Of a DNA stretch of 64,000 bases, positions 2 through 9,432 are shown piece after piece; position 1 is the stretch's first letter, and each line of letters opens with the position of its first letter. The notes under the pieces were generated by a model. That model saw nothing but the letters and a program-made list of their open reading frames with translations. It was not told the DNA's origin and searched no databases. This stretch comes from Cytophagales bacterium (GTDB taxonomy: Bacteria; Bacteroidota; Bacteroidia; Cytophagales; 172606-1), in assembly GCA_030446715.1 (NCBI GenBank), contig JAUJMU010000003.1:124001-188000 (forward strand), written 5' to 3'. A program made the position numbers and the translations under genes.

Positions 2-946
2 GGCCGGGGTTCGGTAGCACTGGGCCGCGACAGCCGGGCCCGTGGACAAGGGACTACTGCCCTCGGTAACAGTGCATTCGCCAGGGAAGAAGGGGCCACG
101 GCCCTGGGATGGGCCGCCATTGCCAACGGGAAGGGATCCCTTGCCCTGGGTACGCACGTGTACGCACTGGGGAATTACTCTACCGTGATCGGCACTTTCG
201 CCACCACGTCCCGGACCCGGCAGCTCAACCGGGAATCCATTGACCAGCAGGGAAGCGACAACGGCTACGCGGGTAATTTTATGATCACCGACGGCCACGG
301 GGGTGACCGCGGGGACTTGCAGGGAAATGGTTCCACGGAGGCGCCGGGCCGGTTCCTGTTTGCCGAACGTGACCACCAGTTTACGGCCCGCTTTTCGGGC
401 GGCTACCGGCTCTTTACCAACAGTGCCACCAGCGTGGGGGTCCGCCTGGAGTCCGGCGCCAATAGCTGGAGTACCCTTTCCGACGGGCGCCGCAAAGAGA
501 ACTTCAAGCCCGTAAACGGCGAAGCAATGCTGGAAAAGATTGGTCGTTTCCGCCTGACGACCTGGAACTACCGGGGCCAGGACGCCCGGCAGTACCGTCA
601 CTACGGACCAATGGCGCAGGATTTCTTTGCGGCTTTCGGCAACGACGGCATTGGCGTGATTGGCAATGACACCACAATCAATACGGCTGACTTTAATGGT
701 ATCAATTTTGCTGCGATAAAAGCCTTGGTGGACCGTACCGAGCAGCTCAGGCAGAAAGACCGGGAACTGGAAGCGCTGCTCAGGCAGTTGAAGGCCGAGC
801 ACGACCGCAATGAACAGTTGCAGGCGGAACTGTCGGCGCAGCAAAAGCGAACCCAAAAGTTGGAGAGTGATCTTGAAATGATCAAAGCGCACGTGGGCCT
901 TTCTCCCCAGGCCAGCACTCAGCCGGGGCGAAGGAAGGACAAGTAG
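2..946 (+). CDS. Head-repeat protein with C-terminal peptidase S74 chaperone domain (5' end outside window)
   Basis: The frame is open from base 2, so the start lies upstream. The visible N-terminal part is a run of about 14-residue repeats with a recurring ALG core, as in YadA/Hep_Hag trimeric head domains. It ends near base 200. A peptidase_S74 intramolecular chaperone domain follows; its hallmark Ser-Asp (LSDGRRKENF, Ser codon at 479-481) is intact, as is the downstream GPMAQDF segment. The last 75 or so residues are a charged coiled coil (LRQKDRELEALLRQLKAEH). In known S74 proteins this domain trimerises a beta-helical fibre and may cleave itself off at that Ser. Inference: a trimeric surface or tail-fibre-like protein. 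No phage genes are visible nearby. A GTG at 158 is in frame, but homology continues upstream of it, so it is not the start. Confidence 0.85.
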   Translation, partial: GRGSVALGRDSRARGQGTTALGNSAFAREEGATALGWAAIANGKGSLALGTHVYALGNYSTVIGTFATTSRTRQLNRESIDQQGSDNGYAGNFMITDGHGGDRGDLQGNGSTEAPGRFLFAERDHQFTARFSGGYRLFTNSATSVGVRLESGANSWSTLSDGRRKENFKPVNGEAMLEKIGRFRLTTWNYRGQDARQYRHYGPMAQDFFAAFGNDGIGVIGNDTTINTADFNGINFAAIKALVDRTEQLRQKDRELEALLRQLKAEHDRNEQLQAELSAQQKRTQKLESDLEMIKAHVGLSPQASTQPGRRKDK

Positions 947-1949: not shown

Positions 1950-3527
1950 TTAATTTTTCAATTTCGCTTCCAGGTCTTCCAATTCATCTTTCAGGATTCG
2001 CAGGTTGTTTTCTACCGCGTTTAACTCTGCCGGTGTTTTGATCTGCGTCCGTAAAACGCGTTCTACCGCTTCCCGCGATACCGGTTTGCGGCTGCCGGCG
2101 TATCCCGGAATACGGATTACTGCCTGCTCCAGGCCGGCTTTATTGGGCACGGGCCCGCCGGAAGAAGCCGCGCTCAGGGTGTCTACCTGCTGCACCACCA
2201 GGGTGTACCTTTTCAGCAAAGCCTCCGTTTCACGGGAAAGGCGTTTTACGGACGCTGCGGGTAAAGCAAAAGTGGACGTTGGGGGGACATTCCCTTCGGG
2301 CAAAGGGGAAAGGGGGGCTGGTTCCTCCCTTACCTGAGCGGAAGCATCCGGGCGGTGTGACGAATCGGCGTCCGGAGCCGGCAATTCATAATCGCCAAAG
2401 TCAGTGGGGGCGTCCGGATTCGTCTGCACGCCGGTGGAGGCAACGGTTCGGGAAGGCACGCTTCGTCGGTACAGGAAGTAGATTACTACCAGCAACGCAA
2501 CTACCCCAAGGGCGTACAACAGGTATTTTTTTACGTGCAACGTGGTGGGCAAGGCCCCGCCCGGCAGCGCTGTTTCCGGTCCGGTCCCCCCGGAACGCCC
2601 CGCCTGCCAGGCCCTTTCCCGCGGCGGCAGCGGAGCGGCTTCCAAACCCGATACACCGTCTGCGGGTGGAATCCCTTCCGTCGGGTCACGGAGCACTTCC
2701 AGTAGCACGACCGTAGTGTTATCCTCGCCCCCGTTAAGGTTGGCCGCCCTGACTAGTTCCTCACAAATCGCTGCGGGTGACAGCTTTTTACCAACGGTGC
2801 TTCCAATGTCACCAAAAGGTACCATCCCGTTTAAACCATCGCTGCACAAGAGGAGCTTATCACCCGGCTGGAGCGGCTGCACGCGCACATCGGGCCGGGG
2901 CGGGTAGTCGGGATCACCCAGGCTTTGGGTAATGAGGTGACTACTGGGGTGATGCTCGGCTTCATCGGTCGTCAGGTGCCCGTTCATCACCAATTCCCAG
3001 ACTACGGAGTGGTCATCGGAAACAATGCGCAGGCCTTCGCCTTCCCGGTACAAATAGAGGCGGCTATCCCCGCTCCAGCCATAATAAGCCTTCCGCCCCA
3101 GCACCCAGACCAGCAGGATGGTAGTGCCCATGCCCCGGCATTCAGGATGGAGACCCGCGTGGCTCACAATTTTCTCGTGGGCTACCCGAATGGCGTCCAC
3201 CAGGGCTTTTCCCAATTCTTCCTCGGGGTAAGGCGTTTGCGAAGCGGGACCGGAGAAAAACGACCGGATGGCGTCTACCGCAAGGGCAGAGGCCACCTCC
3301 CCGGCGTTTTCCCCGCCCATCCCATCCGCTACGGCCAGCAAAGCCCCCGACCGCCCCAGCTCCAAAGGCGCCTGGTGCAGTTCCCACCTCCCCATTGTCA
3401 GATCGGGACACACCAGAAAACTGTCTTCGTTCTGTTCGCGCACCTCTCCCACATCCGTAAGGGCGCCTACCTGAATCAGCAGCTTACCCGCACCGGCTCC
3501 TCCTACAGTTTCATCGTCAACGTGCAT
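1950..3527 (-). CDS. Membrane-anchored PP2C-family serine/threonine phosphatase
   Basis: 525 residues. Residues 15-280 are a PP2C/Stp1-type catalytic domain with its metal-binding motifs: REQNED (30-35), ADGMGG (67-72), GDSR (153-156), SDG (229-231) and GGEDN (266-270). A proline- and glycine-rich linker follows. One transmembrane helix (about 335-353) comes next, then a roughly 170-residue extracytoplasmic tail that is disordered at first and later helical. Expected topology places the phosphatase in the cytoplasm. PP2C enzymes reverse Ser/Thr phosphorylation by Hanks-type kinases, and a kinase of that type lies about 1.8 kb away at 5333. It is separated by 109 bp from the FHA gene on the same strand, probably in one operon. 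Confidence 0.95.
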   Translation of the reverse strand: MHVDDETVGGAGAGKLLIQVGALTDVGEVREQNEDSFLVCPDLTMGRWELHQAPLELGRSGALLAVADGMGGENAGEVASALAVDAIRSFFSGPASQTPYPEEELGKALVDAIRVAHEKIVSHAGLHPECRGMGTTILLVWVLGRKAYYGWSGDSRLYLYREGEGLRIVSDDHSVVWELVMNGHLTTDEAEHHPSSHLITQSLGDPDYPPRPDVRVQPLQPGDKLLLCSDGLNGMVPFGDIGSTVGKKLSPAAICEELVRAANLNGGEDNTTVVLLEVLRDPTEGIPPADGVSGLEAAPLPPRERAWQAGRSGGTGPETALPGGALPTTLHVKKYLLYALGVVALLVVIYFLYRRSVPSRTVASTGVQTNPDAPTDFGDYELPAPDADSSHRPDASAQVREEPAPLSPLPEGNVPPTSTFALPAASVKRLSRETEALLKRYTLVVQQVDTLSAASSGGPVPNKAGLEQAVIRIPGYAGSRKPVSREAVERVLRTQIKTPAELNAVENNLRILKDELEDLEAKLKN

Positions 3528-3636: not shown

Positions 3637-5157
3637 TTATTTTGGCACGTGGCTGATGGGAATAATGATTCCCTTTCCGTCCTTCCCTTCGTTTAGCAAG
3701 CCTACCACCAGCGGCTCGCCTTCTTTTACCAGGTAGGCCGGACCGCCGTACGTACTTGGTTCAAACGGCACACCGGTAACTGGTAAGGTTCCTTTGGCAG
3801 ACTCGCCGGCCGCAACGGTGCGTTTGGTGTACGTAGGCGCCCCGGCAGGGCCGCCCTGAGTCCCCAGCGGAATCTCGTACCCTAAAAAGTGCACTTCCGT
3901 ACCAGCCGCCGGCAACGTCCCACTTTGGTAAGGCAACCCCGTGACCGGCACTTTGGACACGGCCCAATCCCTGCCCACCTCCCGGTTGGCCACCATGATC
4001 TTGCCTTCCCCAAACCCGAAGTTGCCGATTACCGGTTGGTCGTAGGTGCTGTCAGTGGAGAACTGCCGGTCGAAAAGTGTCAGTTCGGGTCCATCCGGAG
4101 CCGTGGCTACCACCTTTACGCTGGCGTTGCCTCCATTGTGGTGCACAAAATTGGCGAAGAGGGCAAGCGCATCTTTCTCCCCTTCCGGATACGCCCACGG
4201 TTTTACCCAGCGCCGGGAAGTAATAAACCGCCCGTCTTCCAGCACAAAGCCTGTGCCCGACCCGATGAAGTAATCCTTCACGTGCACCTTTTCCCGGTGC
4301 TCATTCGTTATGGAAAGCGGCTCGCCGGAATTATCTTTTACCGTCATGAAAATCTGGAGGGCGTATACCTTGCCCTGCGTGCTGCCAATGAGGATCTGTT
4401 CCGGATTGGGTTTGGCCGGAACCGGTGGGTGGGCGACCGTTTTTCTGACGGGCTTTGCCGTGGCTGACCCTACCAATGCTTTAATGATCCTGCTTTGCCG
4501 TACCAGTGCCTCCTGAAAATCCTGATTTTGCTTGTTAAGCCCCGCCAATTCTTCGGCCTGCTCCTTTCGTCCGGCAATTAGTTCCGAGTTGCCTTCGGCA
4601 AGCGCCTTTTCCTGCTCCTCCATTTGTTGCATAACTGACCGCGCTACCGATTCCAATTGCTTGTGGCTGCTCCTCATCCTGGTAAACTGAATGCCCACCG
4701 CTGCCGCACCTGCCAGGAATATCAGCAGCAACCCGAACAGAACGAACCGGTACGGCTTAGCCGTTTGTTCCACAAAAAGTTTGATCTGGCCGGTAAAACG
4801 CGGCGCCGGGTTGTCGGCCGGGAGAACCACCCGCATCCGCGGGCCATCGGCGGAGAGCTGAATCTCATCGCCGTGGTGCAGCAGCCACTCCCTGAGGACC
4901 GGCCGCCCGTTCACCAGGGTCTGGTTCGTACCCGACAGGTTGTAAATGAATATTTTCTGTCCTTTTCTTTCCAGAGCGGCGTGCTTGTGGCTTACGGTGG
5001 GGACATCATCGCCGAAGCAGATGCCGCAATTCTGGTCCCGCCCCAATTCCACGTAAGGCGCCGTCACGGTCTGGGTTGAGTTCGCCGCGTGCTCAGCCGT
5101 ATCCGTCAGAAACTGGAGGATAAATGAAGAACCTATACTTCGGTTGTGCGTTTTCAT
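3637..5157 (-). CDS. Membrane FHA protein with a degenerate trypsin-like (pseudoprotease) domain
   Basis: 506 residues. An FHA domain fills residues 30-112, with conserved LGR (38-40), SHKH (56-59) and NG (83-84) that bind phosphothreonine. One membrane helix spans about 135-158. A coiled coil (165-225) leads to a trypsin/HtrA-like fold from about 262. There the GTGFVLEDGRFITSRRWV segment (301-318) aligns with the family's GSGFVI...TNxHVV, but the catalytic His is lacking. The Asp is kept (RDW, 396-398). The segment that should read GxSGGP reads STYGGP, so Tyr470 sits at the nucleophile position. The protease is therefore predicted inactive. Topology places FHA in the cytoplasm and the pseudoprotease in the periplasm. 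It is divergent from the kinase at 5333. Confidence 0.9.
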   Translation of the reverse strand: MKTHNRSIGSSFILQFLTDTAEHAANSTQTVTAPYVELGRDQNCGICFGDDVPTVSHKHAALERKGQKIFIYNLSGTNQTLVNGRPVLREWLLHHGDEIQLSADGPRMRVVLPADNPAPRFTGQIKLFVEQTAKPYRFVLFGLLLIFLAGAAAVGIQFTRMRSSHKQLESVARSVMQQMEEQEKALAEGNSELIAGRKEQAEELAGLNKQNQDFQEALVRQSRIIKALVGSATAKPVRKTVAHPPVPAKPNPEQILIGSTQGKVYALQIFMTVKDNSGEPLSITNEHREKVHVKDYFIGSGTGFVLEDGRFITSRRWVKPWAYPEGEKDALALFANFVHHNGGNASVKVVATAPDGPELTLFDRQFSTDSTYDQPVIGNFGFGEGKIMVANREVGRDWAVSKVPVTGLPYQSGTLPAAGTEVHFLGYEIPLGTQGGPAGAPTYTKRTVAAGESAKGTLPVTGVPFEPSTYGGPAYLVKEGEPLVVGLLNEGKDGKGIIIPISHVPK

Positions 5158-5332: not shown

Positions 5333-7957
5333 ATGCGACTATTGGAGAAGGATACGCTGTTTGCCGGACGGTATTTACTGGTGCGACAAGTCGGAGTAGG
5401 TGGTTTTTCCGAAGTCTGGCAGGTTCGCGACGAGGATGCGGAGGGCGTTACGGTAGCCCTGAAGGTATACGCGCCGAACCGGGGGCTGGACGACGACGGG
5501 ATTGCGCTTTTCCGCAAGGAGTACGCCATTGCCCTGCCTATCAACCATCCGCATCTGCTCAAGGTCCACTACTTCGGGGTGTACGAAGGTTCTCCCTACC
5601 TGATTATGCCCTACTGCGCCAGCGGTTCGGTAGGCGCCCATCTCATGCAGGGGAAAATTTTTTCGGAGGAGGAAGCCGCCTCTTTGCTCAGGCAGATCGC
5701 GGGGGCCCTGGCCTATCTGCACTCCCGCACGCCTTCCATCATTCACCAGGACATCAAGCCCGACAATATACTGATTGACGAGGACGGCCATTACCGCCTG
5801 AGCGACTTTGGCATCAGCAGCCGGATCCGCCACACCATTGCCAAAAGTACCGGCCGGAATACGGCCACCCTTACTGTAGCCTACGCCCCGCCGGAACGCT
5901 TCGACGGCTCTCCGCGCTGCGTCACGACGAGTGACGTGTTTTCACTGGGCGTAATGTTGTACGAACTCTGCACGGGTGACGTGCCATGGATGGGTAGCGG
6001 CGGTGCTGCTTTGTTAAAGGGCGCCGAAATTCCGAACCTGCCGCCTCCTTACTCCAGGCGATTCAATGAGCTCGTCAAAAGCTGCCTGCATCCCAATCCG
6101 GAAAAACGGCCATCCGCTACCCAACTGGTCCGGCTCGCCACCCTGTTTGAGGAAGAAGGGTACTGGAACCAGGTCAATGCTGAAGCAAAGGCCCGGGTCA
6201 GGCCCGGCAGTGCTCCCCGCCGGCGGATGCGCCCTGCCGTAATAACAGGCCTCTTCCTGATAACCGCCCTGACGGGAGGGCTATTTTATTACTACCGCCC
6301 TGCAAGTGAACCCGTCAACCCCGGTACTGCCAAAACAGCCGAAGCCGCACCCGAGCCGCCGGACCTGATTGCCCGTGAGGAGAGGCTGGCCAGGTACCGT
6401 GCCTACCTGGAGCAGGGCAACGATTTCTTTGCCAAAAAGGACTACAAGCGGGCCTTGATGCAATATTTTCTCGCCCAGGCTTTCTCTTCGTCTGACCATG
6501 CCTCTGACATCGGGTCCAGAATCGAGAGCTGCGAAATCCTGGCCCGGCAGCAAGGGACGGCTCCCGCCGAAATCAGCTCTATCCGCACGCTGGCCATCCG
6601 GGAAGCCGAGCAGGAAACCAGGAAATTAGCTGCGGCTCCTCCACGTCCTGAACAGCGGCAAGCCCCGGCCAAATCGCCGGTAACGGAAAACGCTTCGCCC
6701 GCCATTGCTTTACCCAGCGGCAACGCCGCCGAAGCCGAACGTACCAAAACCGCCGGGCAAGCTGCAGACTGGATTAAAAAGGGGGAAAGGCTATTCCGGG
6801 AAAACCAGTTTGAGGCGGCATTCGGTCTGTTCAGCCGCGCCGCCGGGGTCGATGATGCGGCCGGACATTATTTTACCGGTCTTCTTTACAGCTCCGGTCA
6901 GGGTGTACGGCGGGACGCGGGCAAGGCCCGGGAGCATTTCGAAGAGGCCGTGGCAGGGGGGTACGAACTGGCCAACTACCCCCTCAGCAAGTTGTACCGG
7001 GGGGGGCGGGGTGTCGCCGCCGACGAGAAACTGGCGCAAGGCCACCTGATGAAAGCCATTCCGGTGGTAGTCACCCTTGCTGAAAAAGGGGACGTGCTTG
7101 CCCAGGCTTACTACGGTGAAATTCTGGAGACCGGGCTTCGGGGCGCCAAAGACGAGAAAGAGGCCGCCGTATGGTACGAAAAAGCCGGGGAGCAGGGCTA
7201 CGCCCCGGCCCAGTACGCCGCCGGCAAGCTGTACAATGACGGCCGCGGAGTAGGCAAAAACTACTTGGCCGCCAACAGTTGGTTTGCGAAAGCGGCAACC
7301 CAGGGGCACCGCGATGCCCAGTACGGATTGGGTTATAATCAGGTGCTGAACCGCGGGCAGAAGGATTTAACTGCCGGCGCCGCGTGGTTAGGCAAAGCGG
7401 CTGAGCAGGGCCATCCGGAAGCACAGTACTACCTGGGCATCCTGTACGCCTATGGGCAAGGTCTGCCCCGGAGTGTCCGGCAAGCCAGGCACTGGCTGCT
7501 TCAGGCCAAAGCCAGCGGATTCGCAAAGGCCGGTAACGTGATCACCTTCCTGGAAGGAGGATACACGCAGCCCGTAAAGGTTGAAAACCCCCAAACGGGC
7601 GACCAGATGGAGATCACCGTACTGTACAACGATCCTTTCTCCGCCCTCGGGTTGCTCTCCCAGAACCGGGACCTGACTACGGGAGTACTTAAATTCCAGA
7701 TCCGCTACCATTTAAAGTCACCTTATCCTTTTTGTCACGTTAAACCTGAGGGATACGGGTTTGAATACAGCGGCGGCTTCCCGGCGTTGAAGGAAAAGGA
7801 GGGGATAACGTACCCCTACATTGCCCGCGATACGGAAGGCATTCTGAATGACAACGTAAAATTCGTGATGTATTACGAGCAGACCAACCAGGACAACGTA
7901 AAGCAAAGGGTAAAACTAACCGAAGCCGAAGTGCCGGTGGTGGCCGTTTGGCTATAA
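5333..7957 (+). CDS. Membrane serine/threonine protein kinase with Sel1 repeats
   Basis: 874 residues. A Hanks-type kinase domain covers about 10-275: Gly loop GVGGFSEV, VALKVY lysine, HQDIKPDN catalytic loop, SDFG, and APPER. The Arg of the usual HRD is Gln, so this is a non-RD kinase that may not need activation-loop phosphorylation. One membrane helix follows (about 301-322). The extracytoplasmic part starts with a TPR-like helical pair (about 350-400) and a disordered stretch. About six Sel1/TPR-like repeats (about 505-735, GRGV and AQYxLG signatures) come next, then an unrecognised C-terminal domain (740-874). Sel1 repeats usually bind other proteins. Start at ATG 5333. The gene is divergent from the FHA gene and 18 bp ahead of the zinc-ribbon/FHA gene. 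Confidence 0.95.
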   Translation: MRLLEKDTLFAGRYLLVRQVGVGGFSEVWQVRDEDAEGVTVALKVYAPNRGLDDDGIALFRKEYAIALPINHPHLLKVHYFGVYEGSPYLIMPYCASGSVGAHLMQGKIFSEEEAASLLRQIAGALAYLHSRTPSIIHQDIKPDNILIDEDGHYRLSDFGISSRIRHTIAKSTGRNTATLTVAYAPPERFDGSPRCVTTSDVFSLGVMLYELCTGDVPWMGSGGAALLKGAEIPNLPPPYSRRFNELVKSCLHPNPEKRPSATQLVRLATLFEEEGYWNQVNAEAKARVRPGSAPRRRMRPAVITGLFLITALTGGLFYYYRPASEPVNPGTAKTAEAAPEPPDLIAREERLARYRAYLEQGNDFFAKKDYKRALMQYFLAQAFSSSDHASDIGSRIESCEILARQQGTAPAEISSIRTLAIREAEQETRKLAAAPPRPEQRQAPAKSPVTENASPAIALPSGNAAEAERTKTAGQAADWIKKGERLFRENQFEAAFGLFSRAAGVDDAAGHYFTGLLYSSGQGVRRDAGKAREHFEEAVAGGYELANYPLSKLYRGGRGVAADEKLAQGHLMKAIPVVVTLAEKGDVLAQAYYGEILETGLRGAKDEKEAAVWYEKAGEQGYAPAQYAAGKLYNDGRGVGKNYLAANSWFAKAATQGHRDAQYGLGYNQVLNRGQKDLTAGAAWLGKAAEQGHPEAQYYLGILYAYGQGLPRSVRQARHWLLQAKASGFAKAGNVITFLEGGYTQPVKVENPQTGDQMEITVLYNDPFSALGLLSQNRDLTTGVLKFQIRYHLKSPYPFCHVKPEGYGFEYSGGFPALKEKEGITYPYIARDTEGILNDNVKFVMYYEQTNQDNVKQRVKLTEAEVPVVAVWL

Positions 7958-7975: not shown

Positions 7976-8515
7976 ATGAAAAGGTGTACCAACTGTAGTT
8001 ACGCGAATCCCGACTACCGGGACCGTTGCGCCAAATGCAACGAACTACTGGCTGCCGGACCGGCAGCAACTCCGGAAAATGTACCCCCGGCAGGTAGTGG
8101 GGGTCAGAAAACGAGGCGGGGGCTGCGGGTAAACTTGCCGGCCTGGGATGCACCGGCGGCCGGGGACGACTCCGAGAAGAGCCCGGTCAGTCCATCAAAA
8201 ACCGTCCGGAGAGTGGTACCTGCTGCGACCCCGGACTACCGGCTGGTGCCCATTTCCCTGGCGGACGAAAGCGAAGGAAAACCCATTCCGGTTCCTGACC
8301 AGGGCACTGTTCTGGACCGGGAATTGCTGGACTCTGCCAACAACTCTATTTCCCGGAACGGCCACGCCCGGCTCACCCTGGTCAACGGGGAATGGTGGCT
8401 CGAGAACCTGAGCCCCGCCAAGACCACCTACGTACAGGTAGAAGACCGGGTAAAAATCAAAAAAGGGGACGTGATCCTACTGGGCGACCGGCTATTCCGG
8501 TTCGAAGCAGATTAA
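7976..8515 (+). CDS. Zinc-ribbon and FHA-domain protein
   Basis: 179 residues. The N-terminus has a four-Cys zinc ribbon (C4xxC7, C18xxC21). A Pro/Ser/Thr-rich linker (30-85) follows, with threonines and serines that could be kinase targets. The last 80 residues resemble an FHA fold: ISRNGHARLTLVNGEWWLEN gives the Ser-x-x-x-His pattern, then KKGDVILLGDRLFRF. No membrane segment is seen. It starts 18 bp after the kinase stop and is almost certainly cotranscribed with it. The likely role is a cytoplasmic phosphothreonine reader or the kinase's substrate, like GarA/OdhI-type FHA proteins; the role is inferred from neighbours only. Confidence 0.8.
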   Translation: MKRCTNCSYANPDYRDRCAKCNELLAAGPAATPENVPPAGSGGQKTRRGLRVNLPAWDAPAAGDDSEKSPVSPSKTVRRVVPAATPDYRLVPISLADESEGKPIPVPDQGTVLDRELLDSANNSISRNGHARLTLVNGEWWLENLSPAKTTYVQVEDRVKIKKGDVILLGDRLFRFEAD

Positions 8516-8673: not shown

Positions 8674-9432
8674 TCAGTTGTCAACTTTTATTTGACGACG
8701 TATACTGTATGTCGTCAAATAAAAGTGGACAACTGGGGTGGTCCGAATGCTGGTATGGCCAAGCATTTTGCTTACGGTTTCTATAGGAATGTTATTAGAG
8801 AGCGTAACTGTAGTGGCAAACGTGTGACGCGCCGTATGAAAGGTAAGATTTTTAGAAATGCCGCAGATATCCGCAATTTCCTTCAGATAAGAGTTTAGCT
8901 TTTGATTAGAGTAAACGGGCAGTAATCCTTTGCCATCCCCGGTAAGGGGGTGATTCTTGTACCGTTCGAGGATATTTAGGGCGGGTGACAAGAGGGGGAT
9001 ATTGGAAGGAACATTGGTTTTGCTCCGCTCTGTAAAGATCCACCAGTCTCCATCAATGCCTCTCCGTATGTGGTCATTGGTGAGCTTTCTAACATCCTTA
9101 TAGCTTAAAGCCTGTGTAGCAGGCAAACAAGAATACATCCCTGACCACCTGGATGCACTCAAGTTTAATTTCTTTTGCTCAATGGCTTGCAACTCATCCT
9201 CCGATAAATAATCCCGGTTTACTTTCTCCTTGTGGGTTCTGAATCGGGTAAACGGGTCCTTTCCGAGTAAATCCGTTTTTACAGCGAGGGTAATTACTTT
9301 CCGTAGTCGCTGAATGTGTTTGAGTGTGCCATTGTGTTGATTCTGACAGACCGTTTTCAAATAGCCTTCAAAGCCAGTGATGAATTCATAGTTGAGTTGG
9401 TTCAAAAAAGAGGTGTTCTGTCCCGAATTCAT
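8674..9432 (-). pseudogene. Tyrosine recombinase (integrase) fragment
   Basis: 252 codons from an XerD/phage-type integrase. The SAM-like core-binding domain is present (residues 1-75). Box II survives as HTARHTFATT and MLGHTSIRTT. The N-terminal arm-binding domain is absent. The Box I region reads ALSYKDV, without the usual catalytic Arg. After residue 233 the frame runs into the inverted repeat at 8677-8733, so the motif holding the nucleophilic Tyr (normally right after SIRTT) is replaced. The enzyme is therefore expected to be inactive. The DNA is visibly AT-richer than its neighbours. It lies 261 bp from the 3' end of tRNA-Pro, a typical integration position, and is probably the relic of an integrated element. 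Confidence 0.8.
8677..8733. repeat. 23-bp inverted repeat with 11-bp spacer, fused to integrase end
   Basis: Left arm 8677-8699 and right arm 8711-8733 are reverse complements apart from one mismatch. The 11-bp spacer is itself nearly palindromic. The right arm begins exactly where the neighbouring integrase stops resembling its family, so it marks an insertion or deletion scar. It could be the paired ends of a deleted insertion element or a REP-like hairpin. There is no U tract, so a terminator is less likely. Confidence 0.75.

Follow-up and report, generated by a model that had tools for sequence, protein, structure and literature searches.

Does the gene at positions 3637..5157 of the minus strand encode a working protease, or a protease fold that has lost catalysis and been kept for another use? 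The window (the whole 64,000-nucleotide stretch of Cytophagales DNA analysed) raised this question through an original prediction, which described an FHA protein with a trypsin-like domain lacking His and Ser. That prediction suggested a pseudoprotease that could bind peptides or misfolded proteins in the periplasm and report to cytoplasmic phosphothreonine signalling through FHA.

Domain order and predicted fold

The open reading frame starts with ATG and encodes a protein of 506 residues, matched by homologues over its whole length, in the order FHA domain, transmembrane (TM) helix, coiled coil and pseudo-S1 domain (coordinates within this gene are all on the minus strand). The FHA assignment held up: Pfam matched residues 37-101 with 52.7 bits against a cut-off of 20.7, and from this match, FHA folds and invariant residues we place the domain, predicted to be cytoplasmic, at residues 12-112 (4822..5124). 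In an AlphaFold2 model built with 21 homologues (mean pLDDT 79), residues 8-113 aligned with OdhI and with a mycobacterial KGD-bound FHA protein at Z about 16. R40, S56, H59, N78 and N83-G84 are invariant in 21 homologues; R40, S56 and N78 are presumably the residues that contact phosphothreonine, as is established for FHA domains, and the cytoplasmic end is therefore expected to dock on phosphothreonine. By profile, fold and contact residues, this is an FHA domain.

Assignments to better-known families were tried and rejected. The type VI secretion FHA family (TagH/Fha1, TIGR03354) scored 23.4 bits against a threshold of 120.25, with a match that begins at the FHA part. The MarP family model (NF033740) did not match the window protein and gave the triad-intact homologue L010 19.2 of 250 bits. 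PADLOC returned no anti-phage system match for the window protein, and for its neighbours generic kinase matches and one weak PP2C match.

Only one hydrophobic stretch is present in the protein (peak KD 2.67, residue 138), and the single TM helix is placed at residues about 136-157 (4687..4752), within a model helix spanning residues 125-186. A coiled coil is predicted at residues about 158-232 (4462..4686) from model helices 125-186 and 192-232, whose pLDDT is low to middling. This arrangement would put the FHA domain inside the cell and the C-terminal domain in the periplasm.

The C-terminal domain (residues 255-506, 3640..4395, predicted periplasmic) was delimited from the AlphaFold2 model, structure alignment and the Pfam matches of homologues, and is modelled mostly at pLDDT above 85. 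When the model was aligned against the PDB (Foldseek was also run), residues 245-506 matched HtrA1 (Z 17.3), DegS (Z 16.9) and the S1C domain of RsgI9 (Z 16.8, rmsd 2.5 A), over 172-184 aligned residues. On these matches the domain is therefore assigned to the S1C/HtrA-type chymotrypsin fold, with the predicted double barrel; the proposed alignment to HtrA/S1 structures by a fold predictor thus gave HtrA, DegS and RsgI9-S1C at Z 16-17. Pfam found no match in the C-terminal half of the window protein or of its three genus relatives; the triad-intact homologues scanned have Pfam Trypsin or Trypsin_2 above cut-off at the corresponding place. A PDB sequence search with the window S1 domain alone gave no match, and a family profile was required. 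Pfam likewise found no C-terminal PDZ domain of the kind that marks the HtrA family, and the protein stops 36 residues past Tyr470.

Loss of catalytic residues and selection on the S1 domain

The active-site segments read as originally described (TSRRWV, RDW and STYGGP). The His segment is T313-S-R-R316-W-V, with Arg316 (CGC, 4210..4212) at the catalytic His position by alignment; the Asp segment, R396-D397-W, keeps the catalytic residue in Asp397 (GAT, 3967..3969); and in the Ser segment, S468-T-Y470-G-G-P, Tyr470 (TAC, 3748..3750) stands in place of the nucleophile. The family motif quoted for comparison, TNxHVV, was wrong for this group, in which the close family reads TARH(C/V). The oxyanion-hole residue Gly193 is replaced by Ser468, and by Ser in the copy at locus L015 too; in MamO, a non-glycine at position 193 has been argued to block oxyanion-hole formation (PMC4794232). 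With Arg316, Asp397, Tyr470 and Ser468 where an active S1C peptidase has His, Asp, Ser and Gly193, the domain would not be expected to cut.

Three further genus copies, from genomes of the same family, share 64, 51 and 49% identity with the window protein (the genus sample comprises three genomes, two of them incomplete or contaminated). All four proteins read T[SA]RRWV, and in all four an aromatic residue precedes GGP (STY, STF, GNY and GNF). The retained Asp region holds for three of the four copies, the window protein among them (DW), and fails in L017 (GW, in GAGWATCKV). Chance, sequencing error or a pseudogene was rejected as the source of these changes, given four independent loci, open frames and purifying selection.

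Could the domain still cut with an unusual active site, such as a rearranged triad or a nucleophilic Thr? In favour, three of the four copies retain Asp397, and T302, T313, H339, H340 and H423 are invariant in the clade. Against this, triad-intact homologues share the invariant T302 and T313, which are thus not new, position 195 holds a bulky aromatic residue, two copies have Ser for the oxyanion Gly, and one has Gly for Asp. No Ser or Cys of the S1 domain is invariant among the four copies, which makes a relocated Ser or Cys nucleophile unlikely; a relocated triad was rejected as unlikely on the same ground, and the original claim finds no conserved substitute against it. We consider persisting proteolysis extremely improbable.

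Further full-length relatives came from scanning 84,980 species genomes and from whole-genome searches. The FHA-S1 family is rare, occurring in 7/390 genomes of the order, 7/395 of the class and 3/395 of the phylum, each count including the window's own genome. Among 22 aligned proteins from outside the genus, 21 have TARH, Asp before Trp/Tyr-Ala, and SGGP, with His at position 316 and Ser at 470 in 21/21 triad-intact homologues. Tandem paralogues in L022, L023, L027 and L031 are triad-intact, and the same holds for five loci added later; one more, L086, spans the Asp and Ser segments only, both intact. The triad-intact FHA-TM-trypsin homologues of Bacteroidota (L010-L013 and L018-L035 except L024) share domain order and kinase/phosphatase cluster with the window and, unlike the window protein, have His, Asp and Ser. 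The exception among the 22, from Adhaeribacter aerolatus (L024:7980-9452), reads TARQ and GNTGGP, with Gln at the His and Thr at the Ser position.

The alignment is unambiguous across both motifs (e.g., DGRFVTARHVVEPW vs DGRFITSRRWVKPW). Conservation of Tyr at the Ser position, which the original prediction had left to orthologues, is therefore a matter of lineage: Tyr or Phe in 4/4 genus copies, Ser outside the genus. Ser-Gly-Gly-Pro in orthologues had been named as a sign of an active or misaligned domain. The outcome is mixed: GNSGGP does occur outside the genus, which proves the alignment and shows that the loss is lineage-specific; activity of the window protein is not implied, and the claim of a dead domain stands.

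In a maximum-likelihood tree of 28 proteins, whose exact root is uncertain owing to the longest branches, the four dead genus proteins form one clade (100/100) on a stem of 1.87 changes/site, and L024 is placed elsewhere, inside a well-supported triad-intact group. The dead state therefore arose at least twice, and the Gln/Thr of Adhaeribacter is a separate triad loss. The His-Asp-Ser triad is the ancestral state for the S1 fold, and the change in the genus is for this reason a loss.

Between the window protein and L015, the S1 domain has dN 0.26 and dS 1.3, giving a dN/dS of about 0.2, a rough value because dS is high, that indicates purifying selection; over the fifty residues that surround the dead His, identity reaches 86% and dN is 0.11. 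Identity to the window protein across the genus is 51-64% in the S1 domain, 64-74% in the FHA domain and 30-57% in the linker. New clade-specific invariants appear at 337-343 (FVHHNGG), 379-386 (NFGFGEGK) and 426-430 (GYEIP). These values bear on whether the periplasmic domain is a remnant or passive spacer, only the FHA domain and membrane anchor being functional. In favour of a remnant are the loss of catalysis, the long, fast-evolving stem of the clade and a conservation of the S1 domain that falls slightly short of that of the FHA domain. Against it, the S1 domain exceeds the linker in conservation and has a dN/dS of about 0.2, the segment of the dead active site ranks with its best conserved parts, and new invariants arose; we judge a mere spacer unlikely.

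His339-His340 and His423, clade-specific and invariant, also recall the surface di-histidine that MamO carries on its S1 fold (PMC4794232), and the domain might, like MamO, bind a transition metal, and so report metal status. Two adjacent His in one conserved loop make a thin basis, however, and we hold this to be very unlikely.

Taken together, the unambiguous alignment to triad-intact homologues, the predicted fold, the conservation of the loss in the genus, the lack of a conserved replacement Ser or Cys and the purifying selection strongly support the reading of the C-terminal domain as a pseudoprotease, which probably binds something instead of cutting it.

The kinase/phosphatase cluster and a second, secreted family of predicted S1 fold

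Around the FHA-S1 gene lie a PP2C phosphatase (1950..3527, minus strand; Pfam PP2C_2, 62.9 bits) with a TM helix, a C-terminal region beyond it and the metal-site motifs NED, DGMGG, SDG and GGEDN; a divergently transcribed Ser/Thr kinase-TM-Sel1 repeat protein (5333..7957, plus strand; Pkinase 164.7 bits, Sel1 90 bits) with the catalytic motifs VALK, HQDIKPDN and DFG; and a zinc-ribbon-FHA protein (7976..8515, plus strand; Pfam FHA 22.7 bits), homologues of which occur in nearly all related clusters. FHA-S1, PP2C, zinc-ribbon-FHA and an FHA-bearing kinase are found together in nearly all homologous loci, and those whose contig extends far enough also have a kinase with an extended repeat region. 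The proposed link from FHA to phosphothreonine signalling draws on this neighbourhood and on domain identity; the invariant contact residues and the conserved kinase and phosphatase genes support it.

Some clusters add MotA/ExbB-type and TM-coiled-coil-vWA proteins just upstream of the FHA-protease (L079:10568-11646, L018:6860-7921); the vWA neighbour was not found in the window's own genome in a search that had no positive control. Directly behind the zinc-ribbon FHA gene, the window has a tyrosine-recombinase ORF (8674-9432), in the place of which the sister loci L016, L017 and L080 have a second, FHA-type kinase; no copy of this kinase was recognised in the rest of the window's own genome. 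That genome also holds a separate kinase-PP2C-FHA set (L092; C9, about 66.9-70.9 kb).

L015 (17.5 kb, sister genome), the closest orthologue, has no kinase or PP2C adjoining; it retains two flanking genes, homologues of window 158-946 and 1040-1819. A second copy in that genome, L017, has the cluster. The ORF at 1040-1819, syntenic with the FHA-pseudoprotease gene, encodes a secreted protein without a Pfam or NCBIfam family that is 79% identical in the sister genome.

In most relatives, a secreted protein of ~260 residues is encoded between FHA-S1 and PP2C (e.g., L018:9464-10258, L022:11071-11853, L026:9564-10415 and homologous ORFs). These proteins form one homologous family, present in 14 clusters from the related-locus search and in three from genome searches. 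The family has no Pfam match and no invariant His or Ser in its alignment; a model (pLDDT 77.5) gave best structural matches almost exclusively to chymotrypsin folds (DegP, Z 12.4), suggesting a second pseudoprotease with a predicted S1/HtrA fold. Clusters with dead FHA-S1 proteins lack this secreted family (window, L016, L017 and L024), as do four with a live FHA-protease (L020, L029, L077 and L079). The ORF at 1040-1819 was considered as the missing secreted protein and rejected, since the two share no similarity.

The association between a dead FHA-S1 protein and a missing secreted one is suggestive only. It could mean that the system requires a single S1 subunit that does not cut and that in this genus the membrane copy replaced the secreted one, which itself folds as S1/HtrA (Z 12) without invariant His or Ser and is absent beside both dead lineages. 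Two coinciding dead lineages are weak evidence, however, because four live clusters also do without the secreted family, and the two S1 families are only marginally linked by sequence (hhalign E 0.005); we regard replacement as unlikely. It is a tentative possibility that Bacteroidota possess a system of a live FHA-anchored protease and a secreted pseudoprotease, and that whole lineages collapsed this pair into one dead receptor. If so, the same gene would serve in some species as a protease for signalling and in others as a receptor without catalysis. A protein that is triad-intact across Bacteroidota and dead in one genus and in Adhaeribacter offers a natural experiment on the role of the protease domain; should signalling persist in the dead form, the periplasmic domain would have binding, not cutting, as its core function.

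Proposed role and comparison with known systems

As the more probable reading, we favour a periplasmic domain that has lost catalysis, serves for binding and is connected through the membrane to phosphothreonine signalling in the cytoplasm; L015, alone among the four copies in having neither kinase nor PP2C beside it, stands against this. The 506-residue protein would be a type II inner-membrane adaptor whose N-terminal FHA domain would bind phosphothreonine that one or more adjacent Ser/Thr kinases produce and the adjacent PP2C removes. The TM helix and coiled coil would carry it across the membrane, and the S1C-fold domain, derived from a working protease ancestor, would have been kept for binding without catalysis. 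The former active site is probably filled by Arg316 and Tyr/Phe470, and a ligand or partner is likely to bind at the FVHHNGG, NFGFGEGK and GYEIP patches. Coupling between the two ends of the protein across the membrane is part of the proposal, and the signal may run outside-in or inside-out. A reporter of peptides or misfolded proteins, as in the original prediction, is a guess and one option among several.

Our literature search, incomplete in coverage, found no description of an FHA-anchored S1 pseudoprotease. Bacterial pseudo-trypsins are already known (MamO, UmbA). Trypsin folds used for binding have been described in MamO (PMC4794232), UmbA (PMC11062931) and the S1C domain of RsgI9 (PMC12203970). 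DegS and MarP-type proteases resemble the window protein in fold (DegS, Z about 17; MarP/Rv3671c structures), membrane anchor and periplasmic domain, but they are active and have no FHA domain. MamO of Magnetospirillum shares a membrane-linked S1/HtrA fold with lost catalysis and a position 193 that is not Gly, and has functionally important His at another site of that fold (PMC4794232); unlike the window protein, it keeps His and Asp, has Thr at Ser, is fused to a TauE transporter rather than FHA, and binds metal in magnetosomes. UmbA, from the umbrella particles of Streptomyces, likewise has a trypsin fold without a complete triad, in whose cleft an extended segment is bound uncut (PMC11062931), but it is a secreted particle subunit associated with lectins, with no TM helix, FHA domain or kinase link. 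RsgI9 of Clostridium thermocellum (S1C-NTF2, PDB 7sjy) differs in being an anti-sigma factor with an NTF2 domain and no FHA; like the window protein, it bears an S1C domain at the outer end of a transmembrane signalling protein, and there the protease-like domain is linked to cellulose binding (PMC12203970).
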